Source of the DNA: Paramesorhizobium deserti
GTDB taxonomy: Bacteria; Pseudomonadota; Alphaproteobacteria; Rhizobiales; Rhizobiaceae
DNA: 64,000 bases
Assembly: GCF_001558695.1 (NCBI RefSeq)
Contig: NZ_LNTU01000037.1
Coordinates: 372,001 to 436,000 of the forward strand
Direction of reading: 5' to 3'
Within the stretch, counting starts at the first letter, position 1. Each line of letters starts with the position of its first letter. Position numbers and translations under genes: made by a program. The notes under the pieces were generated by a model. The model saw nothing but the letters and a program-made list of their open reading frames with translations, was not told where the DNA came from and ran no database searches. Shown piece by piece: positions 1 to 14,025 of the stretch.

Positions 1-799
1 GAACGACCGGATTGGCGCTGACCTCGCGCGAGCGGACGTCGTATTCGAATGTCCTACCGGTCATCAGTTCGGTGATCCGCGACTGCGTCATGCCGGCGGC
101 CGGATAAACACCGACAAGGGCTCCATCCCGCAGCACCGTCAGCCGGTCCGATATCTCGAGCACTTCGGCAAGACGATGGCTGACGAAAACGACCGCAACG
201 CCGGATGCGGAAAGGGTTCTGACGATATCCATAAGATGATCGGTTTCCGATTGCGTCAGCGATGCCGTCGGCTCATCCATGAAGATCAGCTTGGCGTCAC
301 CGATGAGCGCGCGAGCGATCGCCACGATCTGACGTTGAGCGATCTGATAGTCCTTCAAGGGCCTGTCGACATCGAGGCTGACGCCCAGCCGCGCCAGCGC
401 TTTGACCGCTATTTCGTGCATGCGGCTGTAACTGATGACGCGCGGCCAGCGGCCGAGCACGGTCTGGAAGGCGATGTTCTCAGCCACCGACATTTCGGGG
501 AATAGCGCAAGATCCTGCCATATGACCTGGATGCCGGCGGCCTGCGCCGTCACTGGCGACATATGCGAATAGGTCTGCCCGTCATATTCGATCGCCGCGC
601 CCGGCTCCGGCCGATAGACGCCGGTGACGATCTTGATCAGGGTGCTCTTGCCGGATCCGTTTTCACCGGCAAGGCAATGCACCTCACCGGGCATGACTTC
701 GAAGCTGACATCCTTCAGCGCCCTGATGCCGCCAAAGGTCATGTTGATATTGCGCAGGGAGAGCAATGGTGCTTGGCTACTCTTCGCCAATTCGGTCAT
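1..799 (-). CDS. Sugar ABC transporter ATP-binding protein (partial, 3' end outside window)
   Basis: Cytoplasmic ATPase of a simple-sugar (ribose/galactose class) importer. Reading the minus strand from the ATG at 799 gives MTELAKSSQAPLLSLRNINM, a Walker A GENGSGKST near residue 45, the signature region YQIAQRQIVAIARAL and Walker B LIFMDEPTAS followed by an H-loop region VVFVSHRL. The signature reads IAQRQ rather than LSGGQ, which is usual for RbsA/MglA-type ATPases. These proteins normally have two ATPase domains of about 500 residues in total; only the first, about 266 residues, is inside the window, and the reading frame is open at base 1. It lies downstream of the binding-protein gene on the same strand with a 76-base gap, so it is probably the second gene of the operon. 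The substrate is not identifiable. Confidence 0.9.
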   Translation of the reverse strand, partial: MTELAKSSQAPLLSLRNINMTFGGIRALKDVSFEVMPGEVHCLAGENGSGKSTLIKIVTGVYRPEPGAAIEYDGQTYSHMSPVTAQAAGIQVIWQDLALFPEMSVAENIAFQTVLGRWPRVISYSRMHEIAVKALARLGVSLDVDRPLKDYQIAQRQIVAIARALIGDAKLIFMDEPTASLTQSETDHLMDIVRTLSASGVAVVFVSHRLAEVLEISDRLTVLRDGALVGVYPAAGMTQSRITELMTGRTFEYDVRSREVSANPVV

Positions 800-875
800 C
801 GGCAGCAATCCATGAAGTCGGGGCACCGCCGGACCAGCCGAAACCAGCCCGGCGGCGGGGAGGATGCTCTGATGG

Positions 876-1865
876 TCAGAGCCCCATGGCTGCGAGATCG
901 GCGACCGTGTCCTTGTTGATCGGCACAAGCTGATCGACGATGATGTTGCGGTTTTCGAAATCGGGCTGGACCTTGCCCAGCCCTTCGATCTCGTCACCGT
1001 CCTTAATCTCTTCGCCCTTCATCAGCTTGTCCGAAAGCGTGACGAAAACCTCACCGGCTTGCTTCGGATTCCACATGAAACCGCCTGAAATGGCATCGTT
1101 CATCAGGAGTTTCTGGCCCTGTCCGGGCGAGAAGGGACCAAGGACGAAGATCTTGCCGACCTTGCGCCGCTCCTCGATGGCGCGACCGGCGCCGATCGGC
1201 CCCTGGCTGCCGAAAGCGAGAAAGCCCTTGAGATCGGGATGAGCCGAGATCAGGTCGAGCGCCGTGCTGCGGCTCTTGTCGACATCTTCGGCCACGCCGT
1301 ATCGATCGCCGACCAGCTTCATGTCGGGGTGATTTTCCCTGAGGTAAGCGATGGCAGCATCGGCCCAGGCATTGTGCAGCGGCACCGTCAGCGAGCCGAC
1401 AAAGACCGCATATTCGCCTTTGCCGCCCATCTTTTCCGCCAGCAGCTTGGCATGGGCTTCCCCAAAGCCGGTGGACGAGGCCAGCTCGAAATCCCAGTCA
1501 GCACCCTTCTGACCCGGCGATTCATGGGTGATAATGATGATGCCCTGCTGCTTGGCCTTGTTTAGCACCGGCTCAAGCACCTTGGCATCGTTCGGCACGA
1601 CGCCGATGACCTTGACGCCCTGAGCGATGAGATCCTCGATCGCGCGAACCTGGAGCGCCGGATCGGCGCTGGTCGGTCCGACCATGAAGGCATCGACGCC
1701 GAGCTTTTCGCCCTGCTCCTTAATGCCGGCATCCATGGCGTTGAACCACGGGATACCACCGATCTTGACGACGATGCCGACCTTTCCGGCGTCGGCAGCG
1801 AGCGCCGCAAACGAGGCGCCGAGCGATAGCGACGCGGCAAGCACGGCTATCAGAAGCTTTTTCAT
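876..1865 (-). CDS. Periplasmic sugar-binding protein of ABC importer (Peripla_BP_4 class)
   Basis: Solute-binding lipid-free periplasmic protein of 329 residues that delivers a sugar-like ligand to the ABC importer encoded downstream. The start at 1865 is chosen because a strong GGAGGAGGAAG site precedes it and because it opens directly with a Sec signal peptide (MKKLLIAVLAAS to about ALAAD, residues 1-24); the open frame extends further upstream but without signal-peptide character. The mature protein starts KVGIVVKIGGIPWFNAMDAG and continues with the two-lobe fold typical of ribose, rhamnose and autoinducer-2 binding proteins (IEDLIAQGVKVIGVVPNDA hinge region). It is the promoter-proximal gene, followed by the ATPase. 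A divergent LacI-family gene and operator repeats lie upstream. The ligand is not known. Confidence 0.9.
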   Translation of the reverse strand: MKKLLIAVLAASLSLGASFAALAADAGKVGIVVKIGGIPWFNAMDAGIKEQGEKLGVDAFMVGPTSADPALQVRAIEDLIAQGVKVIGVVPNDAKVLEPVLNKAKQQGIIIITHESPGQKGADWDFELASSTGFGEAHAKLLAEKMGGKGEYAVFVGSLTVPLHNAWADAAIAYLRENHPDMKLVGDRYGVAEDVDKSRSTALDLISAHPDLKGFLAFGSQGPIGAGRAIEERRKVGKIFVLGPFSPGQGQKLLMNDAISGGFMWNPKQAGEVFVTLSDKLMKGEEIKDGDEIEGLGKVQPDFENRNIIVDQLVPINKDTVADLAAMGL

Positions 1866-1992
1866 ATTTCTTCCTCCTCCCAAACGCCTCCATGCAGAGA
1901 CGTGAGCCGCTTGTCGCGGTCTCTCATGATGCATCGAGTTGACGCGGAATTCGCATCCTCCAATTCGCCGCCTCCTCAAGCGGCACATGTCA

Positions 1993-2040
1993 TGCACAAT
2001 CGATATTTCGCTTTTGCACAATCGATGGTGCAATCAATAT
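1993..2040. promoter_or_regulatory. Operator repeats for the LacI-type regulator
   Basis: TGCACAATCGAT occurs at 1993-2004 and again at 2015-2026, 22 bases (two helical turns) apart. The second copy is part of a 20-base inverted repeat at 2014-2033, TTGCAC-N8-GTGCAA. A degenerate third copy, TGCAATCAATAT, follows at 2029-2040. LacI-family dimers bind such palindromes, and the position between the divergent importer and regulator genes fits control of both. Binding is inferred, not shown. Confidence 0.65.
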
Positions 2041-2103
2041 CAGGTAGAATTAAACTTTCGTCAAGAGCGGATTGGCACTAAGGGAGTTTCAGGAGACAGG
2101 GGC

Positions 2104-3165
2104 ATGAGACATCAGGGCAAGAAGAAGGCGACGATCTACGATCTCTCGGTACTGTCGGGATGTTCTCCCTCCACCGTCAGCGCGGTCCTGAACGGCACCT
2201 GGCGGAAGCGTCGCATCAAGCAAAGCACGGCCGAACTCATTCAAAGACTTGCCGAACAGCATCGATACACGGCCAATCTGCAGGCAAGGGGGCTTCGGAA
2301 CTCCCGCTCCGGTCTTGTCGGCCTGCTGCTCCCGGTGCACGACAACCGCTATTTCTCCTCCATGGCGCAGACTTTCGAGGCAGAGGTCCGCAGCCATGGG
2401 AAATGCCCCATTGTCGTCAGTGCATGCCGCGATCCGCGGGAGGAACGCGCGACGGTCGAAACGCTGATTTCCTATTCCATTGATGAACTGTTCATCGCCG
2501 GCGCAACCGACCCGGACGGCATTCACTTGCTCTGCGAGGCGGCCGGCATTCGACACATCAATATCGACTTGCCCGGAACAAAGGCGCCTTCCGTGATCAG
2601 TGATAATTACGAGGGTGCTCGGATGCTGACGGAGGCGATCATTCAGCGTCTTTCCGCGACCGGCCCCGTCAAACCCGACCAGATCTACCTGTTCGGCGGG
2701 CGCAACGATCATGCCAGCCACGAGCGCATAAGGGGATTCCGCGATGCCCAGAAACAGCGGCTCGGCGCCGATCCGGACCAATGCATCCAGCCGACAGGCT
2801 ATTCACCTGATATGTCGCAAAAGGCATTCGAGGCGTTTTATGAACGCGAGGGCCGATTGCCGCGTGGTCTTTTCATCAATTCCTCGATCAATTTCGAAGG
2901 CCTCCTGCGCTTCCTGGCGCAGCATCCGCATGAGACTTTCGCCGATATCGTCGTCGGCTGCTACGATTATGACCCATTCGGTTCATTCCTCCCCTTCCCC
3001 GTTCTCATGATCAGGCAGGATATCGAACGTATGCTCGCCAAGGCTTTCGAGATCATGGAGGAGCCGCGCCCCGCCGTCGAAATCCACCTGATCCGGCCCG
3101 AGCTTGTCCAACCGCGAACGGCTCTGACCGGCCCTCTCGATCTGATCAGGGAGATCGACGTTTAA
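2104..3165 (+). CDS. LacI-family transcriptional regulator
   Basis: DNA-binding regulator of 353 residues. The N-terminal helix-turn-helix (ATIYDLSVLSGCSPSTVSAV, residues about 9-28) is followed by a hinge and a sugar-binding-protein-like core starting GLVGLLLPVHDNRYFSSMAQ. The start at 2104 is preceded by AGGAG at 2091-2095 with 8 bases spacing; upstream in-frame starts lack a ribosome site and add sequence without homology. The region after the recognition helix (GTWRKRRIKQST) is a little longer and more basic than in LacI or PurR. It is divergent from the sugar importer genes and very probably controls them through the repeats at 1993-2040. The inducer is unknown. Confidence 0.9.
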   Translation: MRHQGKKKATIYDLSVLSGCSPSTVSAVLNGTWRKRRIKQSTAELIQRLAEQHRYTANLQARGLRNSRSGLVGLLLPVHDNRYFSSMAQTFEAEVRSHGKCPIVVSACRDPREERATVETLISYSIDELFIAGATDPDGIHLLCEAAGIRHINIDLPGTKAPSVISDNYEGARMLTEAIIQRLSATGPVKPDQIYLFGGRNDHASHERIRGFRDAQKQRLGADPDQCIQPTGYSPDMSQKAFEAFYEREGRLPRGLFINSSINFEGLLRFLAQHPHETFADIVVGCYDYDPFGSFLPFPVLMIRQDIERMLAKAFEIMEEPRPAVEIHLIRPELVQPRTALTGPLDLIREIDV

Positions 3166-3194
3166 TCGCTGCGGAAATCCTGTTCAGCGAATGT

Positions 3195-3219
3195 GCCGAG
3201 CCCAGGAAACGGGCTCGGC
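3195..3219. terminator. Hairpin between the convergent LacI-type and lectin genes
   Basis: GCCGAGCCC at 3195-3203 and GGGCTCGGC at 3211-3219 form a perfect 9-bp stem with a 7-base loop, located between two convergent 3' ends. Neither side has a long T-tract, so it may be a weak bidirectional terminator. The same stem sequence recurs behind the lectin gene that ends at 5627. Confidence 0.5.
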
Positions 3220-3305
3220 AGGATGATTTTGTCTGATCGCCGGGGCAAGACCAAAGCCCTTGGAATTCCATCGGCCGATCATGAAACCGGCGCATCGATC
3301 GGCAT

Positions 3306-4064
3306 TCAGTTTACCGTGAGCGTTATCGCATATGAGCCGGTATTGTCGGAAAACACATTCTTCCCATCGTTGTAGAAGAACACGATTTCGCCGTCTTCGG
3401 CCACTGGCCAATCGGAAATTCCCGTGCCGACGAGCCTGTAAGGGCCGGTGCCGATCTTCATCAGACACGCACCGTTATTTGCGCTGAGCAGAAGCGCATT
3501 GGGGTCTGTATAATTCGGGACCCCCTCAGGACCGCAGTCCGGGTAGCCGCCTCCAAAATTTGTTGTCCCCGTTACGGAGATCGAAATCTTGTCCGTTCTC
3601 GTATTGACGACAATGCCTGTTTTCACGCCGTCCGCCGCATTCGCCGGAAGCGTGCCGGTCCATTTGAGTTGTCTCAGGACCGCGATGTCGAACGAGCCGG
3701 AATTGTTGCCATACTCACCCGGCACATCGTTGTAGAAGAATGCGAGGTCGCCGTCGTATCGTATTTTCCAGTCGGACAGTCCTTTGCCGATGGGCGTGAG
3801 AGGGCCTCCGCCAGCCTGTCCGCCTCCAACCTGCATCAGAACCGCACCGATATTCGTTCCGGGCAGAAGCGCCTTTGGATCCTTGTTGTTGGGGTCTCCC
3901 TCAGGACCTTCTTCAGGAGCGGCCGGCCCGTTTTTTGCCGATCCTTTGACGGTGATCGTGATATTGGGATCGCGGGTATTGAGGGCAAGGCCGGTTTTCA
4001 CGCCCTGTTCCGCCGTCGCCTCGAGCGTGCCGGTCCACAGTACGGATTTTTGCTGCTCCGCCAT
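3306..4064 (-). CDS. LecA/PA-IL-like lectin with two lectin domains
   Basis: Protein of 252 residues made of two tandem copies of the PA-IL-like fold. Domain A spans about residues 8-130 and domain B about 133-252; both contain GPEG, an A(V/C)LM(Q/K)(V/I)G strand and GLSDW or GISDW. Domain A keeps the calcium loop YNDVPGEYGNNSGSF (residues 111-125), matching LecA Asp100, Asn107 and Asn108. Domain B has an altered loop with a three-residue change, YNDGKNVFSDNTGSY. The LecA galactose contacts His50 and Gln53 are not conserved, so sugar specificity is probably different. There is no signal peptide, as in LecA. The start at 4064 has AAAGGA upstream. First of three paralogous genes sharing promoter elements. 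Identity as lectin rests on motif similarity; function is inferred. Confidence 0.85.
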   Translation of the reverse strand: MAEQQKSVLWTGTLEATAEQGVKTGLALNTRDPNITITVKGSAKNGPAAPEEGPEGDPNNKDPKALLPGTNIGAVLMQVGGGQAGGGPLTPIGKGLSDWKIRYDGDLAFFYNDVPGEYGNNSGSFDIAVLRQLKWTGTLPANAADGVKTGIVVNTRTDKISISVTGTTNFGGGYPDCGPEGVPNYTDPNALLLSANNGACLMKIGTGPYRLVGTGISDWPVAEDGEIVFFYNDGKNVFSDNTGSYAITLTVN

Positions 4065-4190
4065 AGGTTATTCCTTTCGAAAACGATTTGACCAATTCGG
4101 CACGTCTCCCTCGATATTCCGAGATCCGCACCTGCTGCCAAGGCTAAGCAAGAGGAGAGGAAACGGTATTGTAGTTTCTTACAGGTTGCA
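4065..4190 (-). repeat. Lectin upstream region, copy 1
   Basis: The leader of the lectin gene at 3306-4064 is nearly identical to the block at 5347-5470, including CGGCACGTCTCCCTCGATAT, AGGCTAAGCA and the lux-box-like palindrome. It shows that promoter and gene were duplicated together, probably recently. On the minus strand TGCTTAGCCT, about 17 bases after the palindrome, is a possible -10 region, because it is kept in all three copies. Confidence 0.75.
4169..4184 (-). promoter_or_regulatory. lux-box-like palindrome upstream of lectin 1
   Basis: TTGTAGTTTCTTACAG (minus strand CTGTAAGAAACTACAA) is an interrupted palindrome that resembles the CTGTA-N6-TACAG core of LuxR-family binding sites. 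It sits 104 bases upstream of the start codon. The same element occurs at the same distance in front of both other lectin genes. Binding by the neighbouring LuxR protein is inferred. Confidence 0.65.
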
Positions 4191-4236
4191 TGGAACGGAG
4201 TGTTCGCACCGGTGGCGGGGAAAGTTGCAAATCAGC

Positions 4237-4267
4237 AAAAAGCCGGGCCCGTTTATTTGGGCCCGGC
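4237..4267 (-). terminator. Rho-independent terminator of lectin 2
   Basis: On the minus strand GCCGGGCCC, an 8-base loop and GGGCCCGGC are followed directly by TTTTT (plus-strand A-run 4237-4241). It lies 137 bases beyond the stop of the lectin gene at 4405-5346. Confidence 0.8.
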
Positions 4268-4404
4268 AGGAGTAGGATGAGATATGCCCAGCCCGTCGAG
4301 GTCAGGACGCAAGCCCCGGGAGACCGTCTGCCGGTAAAGCCAGTTGGAAGGAAGATCAGTGTAAGCTCCGCGCCTGCGCGCTCCTTACTGGCCGATCGGA
4401 GCGG

Positions 4405-5346
4405 TTATGCATTCGCCCTCAAAAACTTCCAGCTTCCACTCCCCTCATCTCGATCTTGGGATTCGGTTGTATAGACACCGTACTTCGCGTTGGCCCCCGC
4501 GAAACCCCAGCAGACATCGAGGAAACCACCGTTTCCATTAGTGTATTGGCTAAGCAGATGAACCACAGATCCAATATTCACGTTGGATCCGGACACACCG
4601 GAAAACACAACCCAATTTAGAGTATTCTCGGATTGTTCGCTTTTTTCGGCGGTATAGACGTTGTACAACTCCGGAGAACTAGCGGACCCATTAATATCCA
4701 GATATCCGCCGTCATTGCCGTAGAGATTCCTGAGCTGAATAAGGTCGCCGCTGCGGACGTCGGTCCCGTCCGCCACGCCACTGGCCGATTCGACCAGCCA
4801 AGTACCACTACCGCTGTCCCGATCGGACACGGTCGCCGTTATGACATTGTACTTGGCACCTGCAGTATCTGCAGTACCGTAAACATCAAGATAGCCGCCG
4901 GTCCAATTCGTATAACCGTTGAGCAGGTGCACCTTGTCCCCGTATTTGAGCGTATCCGCTACCGGTTCGGCTATTTCTCTGGTAACTGTGATATTGAACG
5001 AGCCGGAATTGTCTCCATATTTGCCCGGCCAGTCATTGTAGAAGAATGTGAGCTCGCCGTCCTCCCGGATTGTCCAATCGGACAATCCGTTGCCCACAAA
5101 CCTGTAAGGACCACTGCCGACCTTCATGAGGACGGCACCGACATTTGCACTGGGTAGCAGCGTGTTGGGATTTTGATAGCTCGGATCACCCACCGGACCG
5201 AAATCCGATTTGTCCTGCGCATATTTTGCCGACCCCGTGACGGCGATCGTGATCTTGGGATCTCGCGTATTGAGGGTGACGCCTGTTTTCACGCCCGGTT
5301 CCGAGCTGGCGTCCAGTTTCCCGGACCAGATGGATTGCTCAGCCAT
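4405..5346 (-). CDS. LecA/PA-IL-like lectin fused to a triple-repeat (beta-trefoil-like) domain
   Basis: Protein of 313 residues. Residues 1-125 form one PA-IL-like domain with FGPVGD, GAVLMKVG, GLSDW and the calcium loop YNDWPGKYGDNSGSF; Tyr42 corresponds to LecA Tyr36, Val101 is replaced by Trp and Asn107 by Asp. Residues 134-308 hold three repeats of about 55 residues (134-186, 196-248, 256-308), each with a hydrophobic (V/L)xxL start, a GG(Y/F)LD core, a Y(N/G)V(I/Y)T strand and a final W. Three such repeats suggest one beta-trefoil, a fold common among lectins and toxins, but I do not recognise the family. No signal peptide. The start at 5346 has AAAGGA upstream. It has its own promoter palindrome and terminator. 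Confidence 0.8.
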   Translation of the reverse strand: MAEQSIWSGKLDASSEPGVKTGVTLNTRDPKITIAVTGSAKYAQDKSDFGPVGDPSYQNPNTLLPSANVGAVLMKVGSGPYRFVGNGLSDWTIREDGELTFFYNDWPGKYGDNSGSFNITVTREIAEPVADTLKYGDKVHLLNGYTNWTGGYLDVYGTADTAGAKYNVITATVSDRDSGSGTWLVESASGVADGTDVRSGDLIQLRNLYGNDGGYLDINGSASSPELYNVYTAEKSEQSENTLNWVVFSGVSGSNVNIGSVVHLLSQYTNGNGGFLDVCWGFAGANAKYGVYTTESQDRDEGSGSWKFLRANA

Positions 5347-5470
5347 TGACTATTCCTTTCGAAGTAACGCGGCCATTCGGCACGTCTCCCTCGATATTCC
5401 GAGATCCGCACCTGCCGCCAAGGCTAAGCAGTAGAGGAGAAAGTGGTATTGTAGTTTCCTACAGGGCATG
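5347..5470 (-). repeat. Lectin upstream region, copy 2
   Basis: Second copy of the duplicated leader described at 4065-4190, with the same order of conserved blocks. The leader of the third lectin gene (6359-6480) keeps only the ribosome site, GGCTAAGCA and the palindrome, so it is an older copy. Confidence 0.75.
5449..5464 (-). promoter_or_regulatory. lux-box-like palindrome upstream of lectin 2
   Basis: TTGTAGTTTCCTACAG, one base different from the copies at 4169 and 6458. The change makes the inverted repeat better (TGTAG/CTACA). It lies 102 bases upstream of the start codon at 5346. Confidence 0.65.
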
Positions 5471-5552
5471 CGAGTTGCAGTGATGCTGGAGACCGAGACT
5501 GGACGAACTACCCGATGCAATTCTGAGGACCGTGAACCGGACATCCATTATC

Positions 5553-5583
5553 AAAAATGCCGAGCCCGGTGATCGGGCTCGGC
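5553..5583 (-). terminator. Rho-independent terminator of lectin 3
   Basis: On the minus strand GCCGAGCCC, a 7-base loop and GGGCTCGGC are followed by A and TTTTT (plus-strand A-run 5553-5557). It lies 43 bases beyond the stop of the lectin gene at 5627-6358. Confidence 0.8.
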
Positions 5584-5626
5584 AGTCGAAGGGGTGTCCC
5601 CCGACTGGTTTAGGCGGGCGTCGTCC

Positions 5627-6358
5627 CTACTTCGCGGGCGTATGGTAGAAACCGTCGCCATCACGCACGGCCGTCCATCGGCTACTGTCCCAAGTTTTGT
5701 AGTTCAGGATGACGTCCTCATGCTCAACGCGGCCTGGCGGGTTGGCGGTCGGCAGCGGCACATGATGGAATTTATTCGTGGCGGAGTCCCAGTTTGCCTG
5801 CCAGAAACTGTCGTCCCACGTCTTATAAATGATGATCGTGTCCTGATGCTCGGTTCCGCCGGGATTGGGTCCTGCCGGTGTATGGAGAAAGTTATTCCCG
5901 ACCCAACGAGCGGTCCAAGTCGTATTGTCCCCCGTTATATAGTTCAGGATTACATCATAATGGCCACCATCGTTCTTGCCGTTCTGCTCCCTCGTCACGT
6001 TGATGTTGTACGCGCCGGTGTTGTCGGCGTAGTCGCCCGGAACATCGTTATAGAGGAACGTGAGTTCGCCATCGTATCGGATCGTCCAATCTGTTAGCCC
6101 CGCGCCGACCTTCACGAGATGGTCACCGATCTTCATCAGACACGCACCTTCGTTCGCGCTGGGTAGAATGACCTTCGGGTTCGTGTAATTCGGATCGCCT
6201 TCGGGCCCGACTTCCGGAAAGCCGCTCCCGAACTTCGTCGTCCCCGTGACGGTGATCGTGATGTTGGGGTCTCGCGTGTTGAGGGTGAGGCCCGTATTCA
6301 CGCCCTGTTCCGCATTAGCCTGAAGTGTGCCGCTCCATAGGTTTGTTTGTCCAGCCAT
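5627..6358 (-). CDS. LecA/PA-IL-like lectin with a three-repeat Trp-rich C-terminal module
   Basis: Protein of 243 residues. Residues 1-124 form a PA-IL-like domain with GPEGDPNY, GACLMKIG, GLTDW and the calcium loop YNDVPGDYADNTGAY (LecA Asp100, Val101 and Asn108 kept, Asn107 replaced by Asp, Tyr36 replaced by Phe). Residues 133-242 carry three repeats of about 30-40 residues (133-161, 171-202, 213-242). Each has H-x-D-(V/T)-I-(L/I), an (N/I)Y-x-T segment, a W-x-A core and an H-(T/V)-P end. I do not recognise this module; its regularity and aromatic content suggest carbohydrate or other ligand binding. No signal peptide. The start at 6358 is preceded by AAAGGA. It shares the palindrome and ribosome site with the two other lectin genes. 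Confidence 0.8.
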   Translation of the reverse strand: MAGQTNLWSGTLQANAEQGVNTGLTLNTRDPNITITVTGTTKFGSGFPEVGPEGDPNYTNPKVILPSANEGACLMKIGDHLVKVGAGLTDWTIRYDGELTFLYNDVPGDYADNTGAYNINVTREQNGKNDGGHYDVILNYITGDNTTWTARWVGNNFLHTPAGPNPGGTEHQDTIIIYKTWDDSFWQANWDSATNKFHHVPLPTANPPGRVEHEDVILNYKTWDSSRWTAVRDGDGFYHTPAK

Positions 6359-6457
6359 TGGTTGTTCCTTTCGAAGATAACATGACCAATTTGGTTCTGC
6401 TCGATCTATCGAGGTGCGAACCGCGCTCAGGCTAAGCAGGAGGGGAGAGCATGGTTA

Positions 6458-6473
6458 TTGTAGTTTCTTACAG
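6458..6473 (-). promoter_or_regulatory. lux-box-like palindrome upstream of lectin 3
   Basis: TTGTAGTTTCTTACAG, identical to the copy at 4169-4184 although the surrounding leader has diverged. It is 99 bases upstream of the lectin start at 6358 and 204 bases from the divergent luxR-type gene. Conservation within a diverged leader argues for function. Confidence 0.7.
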
Positions 6474-6677
6474 ATTGCGGAACCGCAACGCGCCGAATGT
6501 TGCGCCACACGATCTGTGACTGGAGCTTTATTGTATCCTTTGCTGTTCAAACCACCATCTGATGACTGTCTTCAAGGTTACGAAGCGCTCACCGCGACGG
6601 CAAGTCGGCCTGGATTCCTCTTAGAAAAATGAATTGAATACAATCAGCAAGTTCGGTTCAGTCAGAGAATCAGAAAA

Positions 6678-7421
6678 ATGAACAGAGATAATTTCAAATA
6701 TCTGTCGATTTTCTTGAGCTTCTCTGAAAGTATAGATAGGGCTGTTAATGATAATGATATTATAAAGATACTTCATAATACGATATCACAGTTTGGATTT
6801 ACAAATCTGGTGATTTCCGATCTTCCGTCACCATATGGAAATATAGAGGACGTCATTTGCTTTGATAGATTACCTGAAGGGTGGCCGGAGCTTTACACGA
6901 CACAGAAATACGCCCGTTTTGATCCCGTGGCTCGTATGTGCCGAAACACATTTCGGGCATTCGATTGGAAGGAGGCGCCTTACGATCGAGAACAGGAACC
7001 TGGTGCTGGCGAACTTATGGCGTTGGCTCAAGACTTCGGCATGGTGCGGGGTTTTTGCGTGCCGGTTCCGGGATTTGTGCAGCGTACGGCCTGTATTTCG
7101 ATGAGCGGGCGGTACTCTGATCTGCCGGTGTGCGCCAAGCCGGCTCTTCAGTTCATCGCCACGTACACCGCAGAGAAGATCCGGCAGATCGTGGGGGTTG
7201 ATCGGCAGACAGTCCGCTCACCATTGACCTCGCGCGAGAAGGAAGTTCTGCGATGGGCCGCTGTCGGCAAGACGGCGAATGATGTCGCAGAAATCCTGAA
7301 TATCACCGAGCGCACCGTCACCGCCCATACTGTCAGCGCAATGGATAAGTTGGGCGCCGCCAACAAGACGCAAGCCGTCGCGCGCGCGATGCAGCATCAG
7401 TTAATTCCACTCGACCTATGA
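6678..7421 (+). CDS. LuxR-family autoinducer-binding regulator (LuxR solo)
   Basis: Cytoplasmic transcription factor of 247 residues. The N-terminal acyl-homoserine-lactone domain keeps all the invariant positions of the family: Trp69 and Tyr73 (WPELY), Asp82-Pro83 (FDP), Trp97 and Gly125. The C-terminal GerE-type helix-turn-helix spans about 183-240 (LTSREKEVLRWAAVGKTAND). No LuxI synthase is in the window, so it is an orphan here. Upstream bases and the first 200 bases of the gene are clearly AT-richer than the surroundings, which suggests acquisition from elsewhere. It is divergent from three lectin genes whose promoters carry lux-box-like palindromes, as P. aeruginosa lecA is controlled by quorum sensing. 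The ribosome site before 6678 is weak. The signal could be an acyl-homoserine lactone or a plant or other compound. Confidence 0.9.
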   Translation: MNRDNFKYLSIFLSFSESIDRAVNDNDIIKILHNTISQFGFTNLVISDLPSPYGNIEDVICFDRLPEGWPELYTTQKYARFDPVARMCRNTFRAFDWKEAPYDREQEPGAGELMALAQDFGMVRGFCVPVPGFVQRTACISMSGRYSDLPVCAKPALQFIATYTAEKIRQIVGVDRQTVRSPLTSREKEVLRWAAVGKTANDVAEILNITERTVTAHTVSAMDKLGAANKTQAVARAMQHQLIPLDL

Positions 7422-7586
7422 ATAACGCGAGTATTTTTCTTCCGCTGGTTTAGCGGCAATCGTCATTGCTTTTGACAGGGGGCGGGCGCAGCCGGCGTGA
7501 CTGGCTTCCGCCACGACCGGCAAATCGCGGGGAACTTTTCAGGGCCCGCCAACGTTCGTGCAGAACATTTCAATGGGATGGATACA

Positions 7587-7742
7587 ATGAAAACGACAAC
7601 GACCCTTGCGGCTATTGCAGCCGTTCTATTGACCCTTTCCGCCTGCGCCAACACGATCCGCGGCGCGGGACGTGATACCGCCAATGCCGTGAATGCAACG
7701 CAGAGTGCCGGACAAGACGTCGACAGCGCTGCCTCCTATTAG
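7587..7742 (+). CDS. Entericidin-family small lipoprotein
   Basis: Predicted membrane lipoprotein of 51 residues. A short signal peptide (MKTTTTLAAIAAVLLTLSAC) ends in the lipobox LSAC with Cys20 as lipidation site. The mature part is small and hydrophilic (NTIRGAGRDTANAVNATQ), as in entericidin A/B, which are small stress-related lipoproteins. The start at 7587 is chosen because it opens with the signal peptide; an ATG three codons upstream is possible. No partner gene is evident. Confidence 0.8.
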   Translation: MKTTTTLAAIAAVLLTLSACANTIRGAGRDTANAVNATQSAGQDVDSAASY

Positions 7743-7799
7743 GAGGCATGAATAGCACGTAACCCAGTATCCCACCGGCGGCAGATCAACGGTCGGCCT

Positions 7800-7820
7800 G
7801 CGCGGGGTTATTCCCCGCGC
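7800..7820. terminator. Strong GC hairpin between convergent genes
   Basis: GCGCGGGG at 7800-7807 and CCCCGCGC at 7813-7820 form a perfect 8-bp stem with loop TTATT, between the ends of the entericidin and SIR2-like genes. No T-tract follows, so terminator function is only likely. Confidence 0.4.
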
Positions 7821-7940
7821 GCCTCATGGTGCGGGATGTCAACCGCAGCCCCGCGACAGTTGCTCTGTCATGAGATGATCCTGTGCAGGCCAGGACCTGT
7901 CGCTCGGCTGAACGGGATCCGACACCGTCGGAAAGCGGCT

Positions 7941-8789
7941 TCATCGTCGGTCTGGTACGGACGGAACACTGGACTGTTGAGCCCTATCCTTCAGCTTCGA
8001 CAGGAAGACCTGCAAAGCCTCCCCGGGGTCATTCTTCTCTTCGCTCAATACCGTGATGCCCCAGCGACTCAGGACCGCCTCCTGCACAGGGTTCGGATTT
8101 GGCATGAAGATGAAGGAGACAGGGCGCTCGCTCTCATAACCAGACCGATGCCAAGTGCTCCACAGCCGGTGCAGCAGAAGCCGGATATTCATGTCCGACA
8201 TGCTATAACCGATGAAGAGAACCGTCCGGCGGAGCGCATCGGAGCGGAACTTCACGTCCAGCGGGGAATCGAAGGAAAGCCGTTCGAAATAATCGGTTTC
8301 AGCCAACACGAGGGAGGTTTCGTCGTCGAAATCACCATGGAATTTGACGATCTCGGTCGTCTCTGGTGTGACCCTTGCCACATCGCGCGCATTGGCAACC
8401 TTGACGTAATCCCGGCCGTGGATTTCGAAAGCGACCTCGAGGTTGCGGTCGTAATTCGTCGTGTAGATGATCGGAACATCGAGCGACACGATCAGCGAGT
8501 GGATCGCCGACGCCGCGACTTTTTCCCGGGAAACCTGCCAGTGGCGTTTCATCCAGTCACGCAGGCTCTCCATGCTCCCGAGCTTCAGACGATAATACTC
8601 CGCGATAGTCTGGTAATTGGCGTCTCGCCCGCCGATCCGCTCCGGGTCGAGCTGCAGTTCTTTCGCCATATGCTCGATCAACACTTGCCAGGAAGGCAGG
8701 CCGACGCTCATCGAAACCCCGGCGCCGACAAACAATATGGCGCGCCGCTCTCTTATCGATCGGGCCAACTCATCCAATGGAGACTGCAT
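7941..8789 (-). CDS. SIR2-like domain protein (SIR2_2 family)
   Basis: Soluble protein of 282 residues with the hallmarks of a SIR2 fold: GAGVS (22-26) for NAD binding, TTNYD (110-114), the catalytic-histidine motif FHGD (150-153) and a GYSMSD motif (194-199) typical of the SIR2_2 group. Such proteins are often NAD-consuming enzymes, and several take part in anti-phage defence, but this one has no recognisable second domain or defence partner. The ATG at 8789 is used; a TTG at 8834 would add 15 residues and lie only 27 bases after the upstream SDR stop, so a longer form and cotranscription are possible. Function is unknown beyond the fold. Confidence 0.8.
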   Translation of the reverse strand: MQSPLDELARSIRERRAILFVGAGVSMSVGLPSWQVLIEHMAKELQLDPERIGGRDANYQTIAEYYRLKLGSMESLRDWMKRHWQVSREKVAASAIHSLIVSLDVPIIYTTNYDRNLEVAFEIHGRDYVKVANARDVARVTPETTEIVKFHGDFDDETSLVLAETDYFERLSFDSPLDVKFRSDALRRTVLFIGYSMSDMNIRLLLHRLWSTWHRSGYESERPVSFIFMPNPNPVQEAVLSRWGITVLSEEKNDPGEALQVFLSKLKDRAQQSSVPSVPDRR

Positions 8790-8861
8790 CTTCGGACCAG
8801 GCCGGGAATACGTCTTTGCCGGGGCAGTCTCCAAGAACCGCCCCGACGGCGGATTTGCCGG

Positions 8862-9719
8862 CTAAATAATTGGCCTGCCGCCGGTGACGGCGACTGTCGC
8901 ACCCGAGACATAGCTCGACATGGGATCGGCGAGCATCACATAGGTGGTGGCGAGTTCCACCGGCTGGCCGGGTCGCTTCATCGGTACCTGCTTGCCGAAA
9001 TTGGCGACTGCATCCTCCGGCAGCGTCGAGGGGATGAGCGGCGTCCAGATCGGGCCGGGCGCCACCGTATTGGCGCGGATACCCTTGTCCGCCAGCAGTT
9101 GCGCCAGACCGGCGGTAAAGTTCTGGATGGCGCCCTTGGTGGTCGCATAGGCGAGAAGGCTGGGATTGGGATTGTCTGAATTGATCGACGCCGTGTTGAT
9201 GATGGCGCTGCCGGGCTTCATATGCGCCACGGCGGCCTTGGTCAGATAGAACATGGCGTGGATGTTGACTTTGAATGTGAGTTCCCATTCCTCGTCGGAG
9301 ATATCCTCGATCTTGCTGAACGAAGCCTGGTGCGCGGCATTGTTGACCAGGATGTCGATCCCACCGAATTCCCGCGCCGCGGTATCGACGATCTTGCGGC
9401 AATGGTCGGGCGACTGGATGTCGCCGGGCACCAGCACCGCCTTGCGGCCGGCCTGCTCGACCAGCCGTTTGGTCTCTTCCGCGTCATTGTCCTCGTTGAG
9501 ATAGGCGATGAGGACATCCGCGCCCTCGCGAGCAAAGGCAATCGCCACGGCGCGGCCGATGCCGCTGTCGCCGCCGGTGATGATCGCCTTCATGTCCTTC
9601 AACCGGCCGGAGCCCTTGTAGCTTTTCTCTCCGTGATCCGGGACGGGATCCATCTGGCCGGTAACGCCCGGCATGGGCTGTTTCTGCTGGGGAAACGGTG
9701 GTGTCGGATAGTGATACAT
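8862..9719 (-). CDS. SDR-family oxidoreductase (YghA/general stress dehydrogenase type)
   Basis: NAD(P)-dependent short-chain dehydrogenase of 285 residues. It has an N-terminal extension rich in Pro and Gln (MYHYPTPPFPQQKQPMPGV), a Rossmann motif TGGDSGIG, NNAA, a catalytic YATTK motif and the substrate-side VAPGPIWTP. The extension and sequence are typical of the long SDR group that includes E. coli YghA and Bacillus general stress proteins. The start at 9719 has AGGGAG upstream; the open frame continues further but without family character. It lies upstream of the SIR2-like gene on the same strand. The substrate is not known. Confidence 0.88.
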   Translation of the reverse strand: MYHYPTPPFPQQKQPMPGVTGQMDPVPDHGEKSYKGSGRLKDMKAIITGGDSGIGRAVAIAFAREGADVLIAYLNEDNDAEETKRLVEQAGRKAVLVPGDIQSPDHCRKIVDTAAREFGGIDILVNNAAHQASFSKIEDISDEEWELTFKVNIHAMFYLTKAAVAHMKPGSAIINTASINSDNPNPSLLAYATTKGAIQNFTAGLAQLLADKGIRANTVAPGPIWTPLIPSTLPEDAVANFGKQVPMKRPGQPVELATTYVMLADPMSSYVSGATVAVTGGRPII

Positions 9720-9822
9720 GGCAGTGCCTGCTCCCTGTCTAGGACGATGACTGGTGATGACGTTCACGGACGAAAAGAACGTCCGGGATCGCGCAATGTT
9801 CCGCGCTGTTCTCACGCGGGCT

Positions 9823-10737
9823 TCACGCGCTAGCCGGTCGCCCCGCTCGGGTCTTTTGGGGCATCGTCATCGCCGCGACGCCGGCAATGATGCATAGGAG
9901 ACCGGCCCAGGCCGTGGACCCGAGTGTCTCGCCCAGAAAGATGACACCGATAGCCACGCCGATCGGCACGCGCAGATAGGCTTGCGCCGTCGTGCCGACG
10001 GAGCCAAGCGTGCGCAGCAGCCGGAAATAGATCACCAGGGCGAGCGCGGTCGAAAATACGGCGAGACAAAGCAAGGCGAGGACTGATTCCCATGATGGCC
10101 TGAAGGTCCACGGCTGATCGAAGACGAGGCTCAAGGGAATGAGGATCACGGCGCCGCATAACAGCGAGCCCGCCGCCGGCATGACTGGATCAAGACCCCT
10201 AAAATTCGTACCGAAAATCGCAGCCCCCGCATAGCACACCGTCGCCGCCACGATGGCAAGCTGGGCCCAAAGCTGGTGACCGAAGCCGGCAAGCGCTTCA
10301 ACACCGACGATAAGGCAAGTGCCAGCGATCCCTGCGGCGATACCAAACAGTTTATGCCCCGCAACCCGCTCATGGCGTGCAATGAGAACGGTCAGCAGAA
10401 AAGTGAAGATCGGTGTGGTCGAGTTGAGGATGGTCGCCAGGCCCGCGGGCACCGTACGCTCCGCCCACGCGATGAGTGTGAAGGGCAGGACGCTGTTAAG
10501 GCACGCCTGAAACAGAAAGCGCCGCCACGTCACGGCATCTTTGGGTAGCGACAGGCCCCGCCAGCGGATGACGGCTAGCAGGATGCCCCCGGCGATCAGC
10601 GTCCGCGCGGCGATCAGCGTGATTGGCGGGATGGTTTCGACGCCAATCCTGATGAATGTGTAGGATGCCCCCCACAGGGTGGAGAGCGCCAGGAGAAGCG
10701 CCAGATCCTTCGTCGCGCCCAGTTTTGCAATCGTCAT
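9823..10737 (-). CDS. DMT-superfamily EamA transporter
   Basis: Inner-membrane permease of 304 residues with about ten hydrophobic segments arranged as two EamA repeats (ALSTLWGASYTFIR in the first, AVFSTALALVIYFRLLRTLG in the second), the normal design of drug/metabolite exporters. The start at 10737 is preceded by GGATGGGAA; a longer open frame upstream has no hydrophobic character. It is divergent from a PadR-type regulator, which may control it. Substrate unknown; small metabolites or amino acids are usual for the family. Confidence 0.88.
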   Translation of the reverse strand: MTIAKLGATKDLALLLALSTLWGASYTFIRIGVETIPPITLIAARTLIAGGILLAVIRWRGLSLPKDAVTWRRFLFQACLNSVLPFTLIAWAERTVPAGLATILNSTTPIFTFLLTVLIARHERVAGHKLFGIAAGIAGTCLIVGVEALAGFGHQLWAQLAIVAATVCYAGAAIFGTNFRGLDPVMPAAGSLLCGAVILIPLSLVFDQPWTFRPSWESVLALLCLAVFSTALALVIYFRLLRTLGSVGTTAQAYLRVPIGVAIGVIFLGETLGSTAWAGLLCIIAGVAAMTMPQKTRAGRPASA

Positions 10738-10876
10738 GTTCCCATCCGCCTTTCGATGAAGGCAGCCTTGTAACAGCGCCTTATCGTGCAATGCTTCGGT
10801 CCCCGCCGAAATATTGACGGCACGCTCTGGGCCGCCAAGTTCCGGATCTGCAATCCACTGATACGAGATAGCACGT

Positions 10877-10921
10877 AAGATATATCTTGACAGAGGCTGA
10901 TTAAGCTACAAGATATATCTT
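10877..10921. promoter_or_regulatory. Twin PadR-type operators over a promoter
   Basis: The perfect 12-base palindrome AAGATATATCTT occurs at 10877-10888 and 10910-10921, 33 bases (three turns) apart. A TTGACA -35 box at 10887-10892 overlaps the first copy and, 17 bases on, the -10 position falls in the second copy. This arrangement fits autorepression by the PadR protein encoded just downstream, and possibly control of the divergent exporter. Confidence 0.7.
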
Positions 10922-10949
10922 AAGCTATGACGCACCTAAGGAGGTTTCC

Positions 10950-11585
10950 ATGCATGCTTATGGCTGTCATCATCACGGCGAGCGCCATTTCGGCCCGCGC
11001 CGCTTTTCCCAACATTTCGCCCGCGGCTTCGGGCGCGGCATGGGCGGCGGCTTCGGCCGCTTTGTCGGCGACGGCGAACTGCGGCTTGTCGTTCTTGCCC
11101 TGCTCGAAGAAGCGCCGCGTCACGGCTATGACGTGATCAAGGCGCTCGAAGAGCATTCGAGCGGTTTCTACAGCCCGAGCCCCGGCGTGATCTATCCGAC
11201 TCTGACTTATCTCGATGAGACAGGCCACGCCGTCTCATCCGCCGACGGCAACAAGAAGGTCTATTCCATCACCGATGAAGGACGCACTTATCTCGAGGAA
11301 AATCGGAAGGTCGTGCAAGCCGCGCTCGACCGGATCCGCGTTATCGGCGAACGCATGGCTCGCGCCCGCCAGTGGTTCGAAGGCGGTGAAGGGCGCGGGC
11401 GCGACCGCGATATCCCCGAGGTGGTGCCGGAGGTGAACGAAGCCCGGCGCGCGCTTAAAGAGGCGATGGCGGCGCGGCTGGATGCGGCGCCCGGCACCCA
11501 GCGCAGAATAGCCGATATCCTGCGCAAGGCGGCTGACGAGATCAGGGACCTACCACAGGACCCCGACGATATCGATCTCGGCTGA
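10950..11585 (+). CDS. PadR-family transcriptional regulator
   Basis: Regulator of 211 residues. A His- and Gly-rich N-terminus (residues 1-40, with HHH at 7-9) precedes the winged helix (LRLVVLALLEEAPRHGYDVI, then SPGVIYPTLTYLDETG at about 76-91) and a helical C-terminal dimerisation part. Start at 10950 follows AAGGAGG. The His-rich head is found in many proteobacterial PadR proteins and could bind metal. The twin palindromes upstream are the probable binding site. The likely targets are itself and the divergent exporter gene. Confidence 0.9.
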   Translation: MHAYGCHHHGERHFGPRRFSQHFARGFGRGMGGGFGRFVGDGELRLVVLALLEEAPRHGYDVIKALEEHSSGFYSPSPGVIYPTLTYLDETGHAVSSADGNKKVYSITDEGRTYLEENRKVVQAALDRIRVIGERMARARQWFEGGEGRGRDRDIPEVVPEVNEARRALKEAMAARLDAAPGTQRRIADILRKAADEIRDLPQDPDDIDLG

Positions 11586-11607
11586 TTGGCATTCCATTAA
11601 TCCTATC

Positions 11608-11645
11608 GAACGTCCCCAGCTCCTTCCCGAAGGCCGGGGACGTTC
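11608..11645. terminator. Hairpin at the convergent ends of the PadR and dehydrogenase genes
   Basis: GAACGTCCCC (11608-11617) pairs with GGGGACGTTC (11636-11645). The second arm overlaps the stop codon of the minus-strand gene. There is no T-tract, but the position suggests a bidirectional terminator or 3'-end stabiliser. Confidence 0.45.
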
Positions 11646-13263
11646 AGCTCCGGCGAAGCTCTTTCCTGATCAGCACCAGGGTCGGATCGTCCGGGTAGGT
11701 TTCTGCAACGAAGCCCTGCTCCCGCTCCAGTTCAATCGCGTCGTGATTTTCCCGGTTCTCGATCGATTCCAGCGTTTTGACGCCTTTTGCCTCGGCATAT
11801 TGGGCGACAAGGCGCAACAGCTCCCAGCCCACGCCCCTGTTCCTGTATTCGGCACGCACGGAGATCGCCACCTCGCCCTTTTCAAGAGCGGGATCGCAGG
11901 CCAGCATTGCCGTGGCGATGACCGTTTTCCCCTCCTCGGTGAAGGCCAGGAAATTTTCCGTCCTCTGGTGATCGACCTGCGTCATCGCGACGATGCGATC
12001 ATGGCTCACCTCCTTCATGGCGCCCAGAAAGCGGAACCGCAGGTCTTCCGGCGTCACATGGGCGAAGAATTCCGCCAGAGCCGCCTCGTCTTCCGGACGA
12101 ACCGGGCGGACATGGAACGCAAGCCCCGTACGGGTGGTGATGCTGCGGCTCCATCCGTTGTCGGACTCCGGGCCGTTGCGCCGCGATGCATCGGCCGTGC
12201 CGCGCGCTTTTTCCAGTTTTTGACCGGCCGGCTCGATGATGACCTTGAGTGCCTTGCTGCTGGCGGCATTCCCGAACGTGTCATAGGCATCGAGAATCTG
12301 GTCGAGCTCGAAACGGTGGGTAATCAGCTTCTTCGGGTCAATCTTGCCGGACTGGACGGTCTTCAAGAGCATCGGCGTGCTTGCGGTATCCACCAGCCGC
12401 GTGGTGATTGCGATGTTGTGCGACCACAGCTTTTCGAGATGGAGATCGGCCTTGACGCCATGGACGCCGACATTGGCGATGATGCCGCCGGGAGCCACGA
12501 TCGCCTGGCAAAGCTCGAAGGTAGCCGGAATGCCGACCGCTTCGATCACCGTATTGGCACCGCGTCCACCGGTCAGCAGCATGACCTGCTGGGCTGCCTT
12601 GTCGCCACTGCCTTCAACGGTGCGGGTCGCGCCGAAGCGTTTGGCCATATCGAGCCGGTTCTGGTCCAGATCGACCATGATGATCTCTGCCGGAGAGTAG
12701 AACCGCGCCGTCAGCAGAGCAGCCAGCCCGATCGGCCCCGCGCCGACAATGGCGACAGTGCTGCCCGGCTCCACCTTACCATTCAGCACACCGCATTCGA
12801 AGCCGGTCGGCAGAATGTCGCTCAGCATGACGAGCGCTTCCTCGTCAGCCCCCTCGGGAATGGGATAAAGGCTGGTATCGGCATGCGGAATACGGACATA
12901 TTCGGCTTGCGTGCCATCGATGGTGTTGCCGAGGATCCAGCCGCCGGTCGCGCAATGCGAATACATGCCCTTCCTGCAATATTCGCATTTTCCGCAGGAG
13001 GAGATGCATGAAATCAGCACGCGATCGCCCTTCTTGAACTGCGTCACGCCAGCGCCGGTTCCCTCCACGATGCCGACGCCTTCATGGCCGAGGATGCGTC
13101 CGGGCGCGCAGGTCGGCACATCCCCTTTCAATATATGCAGATCGGTGCCGCAGATCGTGGTCCTGGTAACCTTCACGATCGCGTCGGTCGGCGCGCTGAT
13201 CTTCGGAACGGGCCGCTCCTGCAGTGATTTCCTGCCAGGGCCTTCATAGACGAGAGCTTTCAT
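11644..13263 (-). CDS. Zinc alcohol dehydrogenase fused to a GNAT acetyltransferase domain
   Basis: Protein of 539 residues, about 190 longer than a normal zinc alcohol dehydrogenase. Residues 1-345 are a complete MDR-type dehydrogenase: catalytic-zinc ligands Cys38 and His60-Glu61, structural-zinc cysteines 90, 93, 96 and 104, and NAD motif GAGPIG (174-179). A basic linker (about 346-380) leads to a GNAT domain (about 381-536) with the acetyl-CoA loop RNRGVG (474-479); it resembles the acetyltransferase part of protein acetyltransferases of the Pat type. The reading frame is continuous without a stop. The start at 13263 follows GGAG. It is downstream of the host-attachment gene with about 100 bases between. 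The fused roles, and whether the GNAT acts on proteins, are open. Confidence 0.85.
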   Translation of the reverse strand: MKALVYEGPGRKSLQERPVPKISAPTDAIVKVTRTTICGTDLHILKGDVPTCAPGRILGHEGVGIVEGTGAGVTQFKKGDRVLISCISSCGKCEYCRKGMYSHCATGGWILGNTIDGTQAEYVRIPHADTSLYPIPEGADEEALVMLSDILPTGFECGVLNGKVEPGSTVAIVGAGPIGLAALLTARFYSPAEIIMVDLDQNRLDMAKRFGATRTVEGSGDKAAQQVMLLTGGRGANTVIEAVGIPATFELCQAIVAPGGIIANVGVHGVKADLHLEKLWSHNIAITTRLVDTASTPMLLKTVQSGKIDPKKLITHRFELDQILDAYDTFGNAASSKALKVIIEPAGQKLEKARGTADASRRNGPESDNGWSRSITTRTGLAFHVRPVRPEDEAALAEFFAHVTPEDLRFRFLGAMKEVSHDRIVAMTQVDHQRTENFLAFTEEGKTVIATAMLACDPALEKGEVAISVRAEYRNRGVGWELLRLVAQYAEAKGVKTLESIENRENHDAIELEREQGFVAETYPDDPTLVLIRKELRRS

Positions 13264-13365
13264 TACCTTCTCCATTGGTCGTGCGGACTGCTTGCAATGC
13301 TGCGCCAAGGCAACCGGAGCCTCCTTGACCCGGATCAATGGGCGTCCGCGATGCAAGCGGCCGCA

Positions 13366-13770
13366 TCACGCCGCGACGATGGCTGTCTTTATGGCTTCAG
13401 CGGAATGTTTTGCGAGATCCCGGTCGATCTGTCCGACCAGCTTGCCGCTCAGGGTGGGGTGGAAATGCCGGCGCAATTCGCCAAGCGTTCGCGGATCGGC
13501 CACGATCACCACATGCTGGAAACTTCCGGCCAGCGCTTCGCGGTTCAGATAAGCGGCGGCAGCGGCGGCGAAATCATCCTCCGCCAGACGTGCGATATCG
13601 GGATTTGCCGTGCTGCTGCGATGCCGGCCGCCGGAGCCACCGCTGACCTCCTCGAGGTTCGGCGCGGGCAGTTCGATGAGTTCGATGCGTGGTTCGTGCC
13701 CCTTATTGCGGAGGATCCGCATCTTTTCGCCGTCGAGGACCGCGACAATTGCTCCGTTGGGTAGGATCAT
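13366..13770 (-). CDS. Host-attachment-family protein
   Basis: Protein of 134 residues of the host-attachment (AtsE-like) family. The N-terminal strand pattern (AIVAVLDGEKMRILRNKG), the central ARLAEDDFAAAAAAYLNREA and the HVVIVADPRTLGELRRHFHP segment are typical. The family is named after an Agrobacterium attachment gene, but its molecular function is not established; the fold is related to RNase H-like release-factor domains. Start at 13770 has AGGAG. Its first codons overlap the stop of the hemN remnant by 4 bases, so it is probably transcribed from the hemN promoter with its anaerobox. Confidence 0.85.
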   Translation of the reverse strand: MILPNGAIVAVLDGEKMRILRNKGHEPRIELIELPAPNLEEVSGGSGGRHRSSTANPDIARLAEDDFAAAAAAYLNREALAGSFQHVVIVADPRTLGELRRHFHPTLSGKLVGQIDRDLAKHSAEAIKTAIVAA

Positions 13771-13958: not shown

Positions 13959-14011
13959 GGCATTCTCTCGCAGATTGGCTTTGAGATTGCAGCGGCGCGG
14001 GCTGATCTGCC

Positions 14012-14025
14012 TTGATTTCGGTCAA
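14012..14025. promoter_or_regulatory. FNR/FixK-type anaerobox
   Basis: TTGATTTCGGTCAA matches the TTGAT-N4-ATCAA consensus with one mismatch. It is centred about 60 bases upstream of the hemN-remnant start, consistent with activation at -41.5. It points to low-oxygen control of the host-attachment gene and perhaps of the dehydrogenase fusion. The divergent kinase gene starts 300 bases away. Confidence 0.65.

Follow-up and report, generated by a model that had tools for sequence, protein, structure and literature searches.

The window analysed here, a 64,000-nucleotide stretch of the genome of Paramesorhizobium deserti, a soil bacterium related to the rhizobia (assembly GCF_001558695.1, contig NZ_LNTU01000037.1, positions 372,001 to 436,000), carries a compact group of four genes: three adjacent minus-strand genes, lec1, lec2 and lec3, whose products contain PA-IL domains like that of the lectin LecA, and a divergent gene, luxR, encoding a LuxR-type protein (Table 1). 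The group occupies window positions 3306-7421, which by computed offset correspond to G000:C37:375306-379421 in the 5.48 Mb window genome (G000). A preliminary description of this DNA had proposed that these genes form a signal-controlled lectin system. Gene linkage by itself would be thin evidence of such control. The strongest evidence at the locus was absent from that description, namely three lux-type boxes, one upstream of each lectin gene. The proposal now seems well supported, by these per-gene boxes, by the co-conservation of box, LuxR and lectins over two genera, and by the presence of the same box before a luxI gene and before genes for PA-IIL (LecB-type) proteins.

Lux-type boxes and genes of the locus

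Alignment of the three upstream regions revealed a shared 18-base element, CTGTARGAAACTACAATA, with the core TGTA-N6-TACA, which has the layout of a lux box. The 18-mer occurs three times in the window when up to three mismatches are allowed (0 expected), and the core is found in the 64 kb only in the three lectin boxes (0.06 expected). Throughout the genome, a 16-base form has three exact occurrences, the same three boxes, with no site at one or two mismatches and 11 at three. Promoters that are activated by LuxR proteins in the class-II-type manner have the dyad about 42 bp upstream of the transcription start and about 31 nt between the dyad centre and the -10 element. Downstream of the box the lectin promoters share a conserved block, TGCTTAGCCT, with the -10-like hexamer TAGCCT. 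Because this hexamer starts 31-32 nt past the box centre, the box is placed near -42; the class-II-type layout is thus matched in dyad and spacing, the position being deduced from the -10-like hexamers. Both lec3 and lec2 are followed by a terminator-like stem and a T run, so that lec1-3 are probably separate transcription units; the terminator scan gave 4 sites in total versus 4.7 in shuffled sequences, which is no excess.

The reading frames of the three lectin genes are as previously described, and all three products passed the PF07828 search (cut-off 22.5 bits), lec1 with the two lectin domains that had been ascribed to it. At E <= 0.001 the whole genome yields only the four PF07828 domains of lec1-3, each of which is above the cut-off, and the structural matches of the lectins are LecA, PllA and other PA-I lectins. 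Judged by eye on alignments, all four domains retain the side chains D100, N/D107 and N108, which we take to be the calcium-binding positions of LecA (D100, N107 and N108); PllA also has D in place of N107. The presumed galactose contacts of LecA, H50 and Q53, are replaced in all four domains, by Y or N and by P respectively, and for this reason the sugar specificity of LecA is not transferable to lec1-3. PllA, which in the alignment likewise has no H at LecA position 50, is reported to bind galactosides (PMC11875179).

Two of the lectins carry C-terminal modules that had been called unknown. The lec2 module (4405-4950, minus strand) has no Pfam match at E <= 1 and is 37-42% identical to plasmid-encoded hypothetical proteins of Streptomyces and Nostoc. 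The lec3 module matches PF15942 (DUF4751), marginally, at 25.3 bits against a cut-off of 25. Two relatives introduced below, G005 and G358, have full-length counterparts of lec3 at 72% identity (250 aa) and 60% identity (238 aa), respectively, which score 19.4 and 24.9 bits for DUF4751, both under the cut-off. Structure prediction gave a mean predicted local distance difference test score of 34 for the lec2 module from a single sequence, and of 38 for lec3 with one relative, each too low for a fold call. A plasmid collection held no match to lec1, to lec3 or to the C-terminal part of lec3. The N-terminal PA-IL domain of lec2 shares 89% identity with its counterpart in a G005 lectin (L043:8369-9118) bearing a lec3-type C-terminal module; because such similar domains have different modules, the extra modules have been swapped among lectin paralogues.

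The product of luxR has Autoind_bind and GerE domains, both above cut-off, and its matches among solved structures are LasR, RhlR variants and other quorum-sensing receptors. At the six positions that we take to be the key ones of the acyl-homoserine lactone (AHL) domain it has W69, Y73, D82, P83, W97 and G125, in agreement with the preliminary description, and all six residues are retained in all five aligned LuxR orthologues. The first 223 bases of luxR (6678-6900) are AT-rich, with 35% GC compared with 61% for the window and 53-57% for the lectin genes. The length of the protein, 247 aa, lies within the range of about 230-270 aa given for LuxR-type AHL receptors (PMC10134790).

It is highly probable that the locus is a self-contained, signal-switched lectin cassette, in which LuxR with an AHL activates each lectin gene through that gene's own box. 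LuxR would bind the AHL and, as a dimer, occupy the TGTA-N6-TACA site that precedes each lectin gene and overlaps the -35 region of what would be a weak promoter; the bound protein would recruit RNA polymerase by class-II-type activation, and lec1, lec2 and lec3 would each have a promoter and transcript of its own. The PA-IL domains would be expected to hold sugars via the calcium site, with the extra domains supplying more binding faces, and the resulting multivalent lectins could cross-link cells, matrix or a host surface. A role in host or biofilm recognition, as had been suggested earlier, is possible. Lectin making on a chemical cue is probable because the receptor gene adjoins the lectin genes, each of which has the same receptor-type DNA switch. 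EsaR-type LuxR proteins act as repressors, and the sequence does not settle the sign of regulation; luxR is moreover upstream of the lectin genes and divergent from them. That LuxR is a repressor, with the lectins made when the signal is absent, is nevertheless quite unlikely, since the box does not overlap the -10-like element but has the spacing from it that an activator site would have, and a consensus scan finds no -35/-10 pair at the boxes.

Table 1. Features of the LuxR-lectin locus (window positions)
Feature	Position	Strand	Basis or remark
luxR, 247 aa, without adjacent luxI	6678-7421	+	PF03472 102.5 bits, PF00196 64.8 bits
lec3: PA-IL (residues 8-125) and C-terminal repeat module	5627-6358	-	PF07828 70.4 bits
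lec2: PA-IL (residues 7-124) and C-terminal three-repeat module	4405-5346	-	PF07828 66.9 bits
lec1: two PA-IL domains in tandem	3306-4064	-	PF07828 96.6 bits, two stretches
lec3 lux-type box CTGTAAGAAACTACAATA	6456-6473	-	motif and genome-wide search
lec2 lux-type box CTGTAGGAAACTACAATA	5447-5464	-	motif and genome-wide search
lec1 lux-type box CTGTAAGAAACTACAATA	4167-4184	-	motif and genome-wide search
lec3 -10-like TAGCCT in conserved TGCTTAGCCT	6429-6434	-	32 nt after box centre; putative role
lec2 -10-like TAGCCT	5421-5426	-	31 nt after box centre; putative role
lec1 -10-like TAGCCT	4141-4146	-	31 nt after box centre; putative role
Terminator-like stem, 11 pairs and T run, after lec3	5558-5584	-	position and stem strength only
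Terminator-like stem, 9 pairs and T run, after lec2, before lec1 box	4242-4267	-	position and stem strength only
10-pair stem between LacI-type gene (+) and lec1 (-)	3194-3220		terminator score on + strand only

Occurrence of box, receptor and lectins in the family

The distribution of the three components was examined in 394 genomes of the family, G000 included, which are a sample rather than the whole family. PF07828 is present in five: G000, G005 and G003, which belong to the same genus, and G358 and G322, which belong to a second genus (g90). G005 matches Mesorhizobium sp. RMAD-H1 and G003 matches Phyllobacterium phragmitis 1N-3; the PA-IL gene of G322 is truncated. A relaxed box, CTGTA-N6-TACAATA, occurs at 35 sites in 22 of the 394 genomes. 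Sixteen of these sites are in the PA-IL genomes (G000, 3; G005, 5; G003, 1; G358, 6; G322, 1) and 19 in others, so that the box is found in 5/5 genomes with PA-IL versus 17/389 without (Fisher 3e-7, relatedness ignored). The reversed box, as a control, was absent from the five genomes with PA-IL and gave about 52 sites among the others. No similarity to LuxR, lectin, LuxI or PA-IIL was present within the 1.6-3.0 kb loci around any of the 19 other sites.

Within the PA-IL genomes, 13 sites lie before PA-IL genes, one before the luxI gene of G358 and two before PA-IIL-domain genes. Every one of the 13 PA-IL genes or remnants has a box, 11 being intact and two broken or truncated. The latter two, G358:C1:79022-79162 (L040) and G322:C45:29295-29396 (L035), retain the box, and from their sequence we regard these copies as turnover of lectin genes. 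A TAnnnT hexamer follows the box centre by 31 or 32 nt in 14/16 boxed promoters, the exceptions being the broken G358 PA-IL copy and G358 luxI. The box is also the most conserved block of the 13 PA-IL promoters, at 1.78 bits/column compared with 0.81 upstream, 0.96 and 0.99 in the next two stretches and 0.46 beyond.

A search for counterparts of the window LuxR (E <= 1e-20, at most six candidates scored per genome) returned proteins of 81% (G003), 71% (G005), 56% (G358) and 46% (G387) identity, the next listed being 37% or less. LuxR orthologues of at least 46% identity are accordingly present in 4/5 PA-IL genomes versus 1/389 others (Fisher 3e-8, relatedness ignored). In a 33-row tree the four lectin-linked LuxRs cluster as a single clade (98/95), to which the G387 protein is sister (100/99). 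The search for the same locus in related genomes, which the preliminary description had recommended, was successful, as PA-IL genes adjoin the LuxR orthologue in G003, G005 and G358. The neighbours of the cassette differ among these three genomes: in a synteny test with 27 stop-to-stop frames of at least 200 aa from window 1-20000, the frames matching around their cassettes (E <= 1e-10) belong to the cassette or are antisense to it, except for one frame at the left edge of the window with 31-36% matches in G005 and G358, by eye an ABC ATPase. Because the cassette recurs in different surroundings, the LuxR-lectin group behaves as a unit. In a sample of the phylum, PF07828 occurs in 5/395 genomes, our own included; the other four matches, at 21-24 bits, are half-domains in open frames of 508-565 residues, three of them barely above the cut-off and one under it.

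The window genome has three further Autoind_bind LuxRs, four in total with luxR, as well as two LuxI genes elsewhere, and the boxes might be bound by one of these other receptors, for instance the C7, C34 or C37:134480 protein, with the adjoining luxR incidental. The G322 box, which occurs without a window-type LuxR, would fit such an arrangement. It is nonetheless very unlikely, given that the window-type LuxR co-occurs with PA-IL and box as described and that no TGTA-N6-TACA was found within 12-14 kb around the other LuxI/LuxR genes of the window genome. In addition, three lectin-less genomes of the same genus have neither such a box nor a match to the window LuxR at E <= 1e-20; because they keep the LuxI of the genus all the same, the box tracks the window-type LuxR.

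The two boxed PA-IIL-domain genes, one in G358 and one in G005, are on contigs other than that of the cassette. The G358 gene (L095:5607-6671, minus strand) scores 24.3 bits against a cut-off of 21 and is joined to hemopexin sequence; the G005 gene (L096:5814-6848, minus strand) has a Pro/Thr-rich linker and a further C-terminal part. Boxes stand before both PA-IL and PA-IIL genes in G358 and, with its PA-IIL domain under the cut-off, in G005. The promoters of these two genes have TACAAT and TACGAT at -10-like spacing and otherwise share little with the lectin promoters except the box, which makes their boxes the strongest sign of a functional element rather than of merely inherited lectin-promoter DNA. 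A further alternative is chance linkage, in which LuxR would be unrelated to the lectins and the boxes would be palindromes conserved via gene duplication. The lectin genes are indeed paralogous and have similar upstream DNA, but the box is also before non-homologous genes, luxI and the two PA-IIL genes at other loci, and it exceeds the rest of the promoter in conservation; we regard chance linkage as extremely improbable. PA-IIL domains above the cut-off are present in two of the 394 genomes, G358 and G173. The G173 gene has no TGTA-N6-TACA in the surrounding 3.3 kb, and a LuxR-like match beside it was set aside as looking, by eye, like a response regulator. In the window genome there is no fourth box and no PA-IIL match in the genome search, which also missed the G005 gene.

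Several observations weigh against a signal-switched cassette. Allowing up to three mismatches, the 16-base pattern gives 14 matches in total in the window genome and its reversed control 29, so that the three-mismatch sites are uninformative. A scan for sigma-70 consensus promoters recovers none at the boxes, a result that fits an activator-dependent promoter and does not support one. In the window motif search no exact box precedes luxR, and autoregulation of luxR is therefore not seen. Lectin promoters within the genus share similarity beyond the box, so that these boxes do not count as evidence independent of gene duplication. Among the relatives, G322 has a boxed, truncated PA-IL gene and no match to the window LuxR at E <= 1e-20, and G387 has a LuxR of 46% identity yet lacks both a PA-IL match and an exact box. 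Finally, the PA-IIL call in G005 scores 17.7 bits against the cut-off of 21 and was not recovered in the genome search; it depends on 60% identity over 131 residues to the G358 domain, itself at only 24.3 bits.

Origin of the receptor and source of the signal

The preliminary description had noted that LuxI was missing. This is correct beside the locus and incorrect for the genome, which has two LuxI genes, on C7 and C34 rather than on C37. With no cognate LuxI adjoining it, luxR qualifies as a LuxR solo. In G358, a luxI gene (PF00765, 89.5 bits) lies divergently about 1 kb from luxR and has its own box; such an autoinducing luxI inside the lectin regulon was seen only in G358 and not in the window genome, where no orthologue of it was found and the best matches are the two unlinked LuxIs, at 29-30% identity. 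The best-ranked relative of the window LuxR in the plasmid collection is a LuxR of the Methylorubrum extorquens AM1 megaplasmid (48.9%), whose neighbour is a LuxI sharing 51% identity with the G358 one. This pair (L139:8001-9486) is unannotated in the record copy, and its LuxI was confirmed by Pfam; unlike the cassette, it has no PA-IL or PA-IIL match and no TGTA-N6-TACA in the 16.7 kb around it. A LuxR of Tistrella mobilis pTM3, 36% identical to the window LuxR, is likewise beside a LuxI-like gene, 49% identical to the G358 LuxI. Because LuxR relatives adjoin LuxI genes, the receptor probably derived from an ordinary AHL circuit. These comparisons favour reading the window LuxR as a solo that remains from a LuxI/LuxR circuit with lectin targets, and hence as a descendant of a pair whose luxI would have been kept in a relative.

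As a solo, the window LuxR would respond to AHLs from one of the two unlinked LuxIs or from neighbours. The C34 LuxI (L109, G000:C34:14699-15289) is 89-95% identical in the five congeners searched (L105-L108, L110), whether lectin-bearing or not, the three lectin-less congeners keeping it at 89-94%. Its conservation in all five makes an in-house AHL, common to the genus, a possible ligand; the alternative is eavesdropping on the AHLs of others.

Some plant-associated LuxR solos respond to plant signals, usually with substitutions at key positions of the AHL domain. The window LuxR could accordingly answer a plant or other host signal, with the same regulon; it is a solo in this genome, and the two named carriers are a Phyllobacterium and a Mesorhizobium. 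We consider this unlikely, as the six AHL-domain residues are retained in five aligned orthologues, LuxR relatives adjoin LuxI synthases, and the luxI of G358 bears the same box.

With an AHL as the preferred ligand, a broader reading can be put forward tentatively, and with some doubt: in this rhizobial lineage the group may be a portable LuxR-lectin cassette minus its own synthase, by which a varied set of LecA/LecB-type lectins is triggered by other quorum circuits or by the AHLs of other species. Were this the case, the LecA/LecB pair would have come under LuxR control, or stayed under it, independently of Pseudomonas, which would suggest a functional reason for coupling these lectins to cell density.

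Comparison with known lectin circuits

Lectins of the LecA/LecB type are known to be controlled by LuxR proteins in Pseudomonas, Ralstonia and Burkholderia, the Ralstonia LecM and Burkholderia Bcl lectins being of the PA-IIL type; the cassette, as predicted here, is a dedicated alphaproteobacterial variant. P. aeruginosa resembles it in having PA-IL and PA-IIL lectins under LuxR-type control, with lecA and lecB under RhlR (PMC7253366, PMC5750575). There, however, the two genes lie inside the regulon of more than 300 genes that the las and rhl systems regulate (PMC2018727), whereas in the five genomes with PA-IL the boxes found precede nothing but lectin genes and one luxI; also unlike P. aeruginosa are the neighbouring solo LuxR, the multi-domain, multi-copy lectins and the alphaproteobacterial host. 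In Ralstonia solanacearum, lecM adjoins the SolI/SolR pair and is positively regulated by it (PMC11298618), so that there, as in the cassette, a lectin gene is beside a luxR-type gene; in the Ralstonia system luxI is retained, and aidA and aidC are reported as further targets. The bclACB genes of Burkholderia cenocepacia are three lectin genes in a row that are activated by CepR and shape biofilm structure (PMC3426421). They are thought to be one operon among other CepR targets, in contrast to the one box per lectin gene found here. Enterobacter cloacae EclA, a two-domain LecA fusion, resembles lec2 and lec3, and Photorhabdus PllA is a LecA-type lectin (PMC11875179); a quorum link is not mentioned for either in the available text of that source, whereas here a LuxR gene adjoins. 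In the open-licence literature (titles and abstract openings) we found no description of a LuxR-lectin link in rhizobia, and a review of LuxR solos does not mention 'lectin' in its available text (PMC10134790).

What is new in the locus is the alphaproteobacterial setting, a nearly lectin-only set of boxes that in relatives includes both lectin types, a solo receptor with a luxI-bearing relative, and multi-domain lectins. P. aeruginosa is the best-known case of quorum-controlled LecA and LecB, and its large regulon makes the purpose of the lectins hard to isolate. A minimal predicted circuit in non-model alphaproteobacteria whose recognized targets are almost only lectins, with natural versions with and without luxI, would make it possible to test cleanly why lectins are coupled to cell-cell signalling. 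It also provides a ready regulon prediction for a LuxR solo, and the DNA motif leads to additional members, among them two diverged PA-IIL-domain proteins, of which one is under the Pfam cut-off.

Elsewhere in the region, window 3000-9000 contains no Rfam family at gathering scores. Beyond luxR, at 7941-8834 on the minus strand, lies a gene for a SIR2-like protein (PF13289, 95.9 bits) that weakly resembles the N-terminal part of the anti-phage sirtuin Dsr2, at 39.8 bits, which is far under the cut-off.

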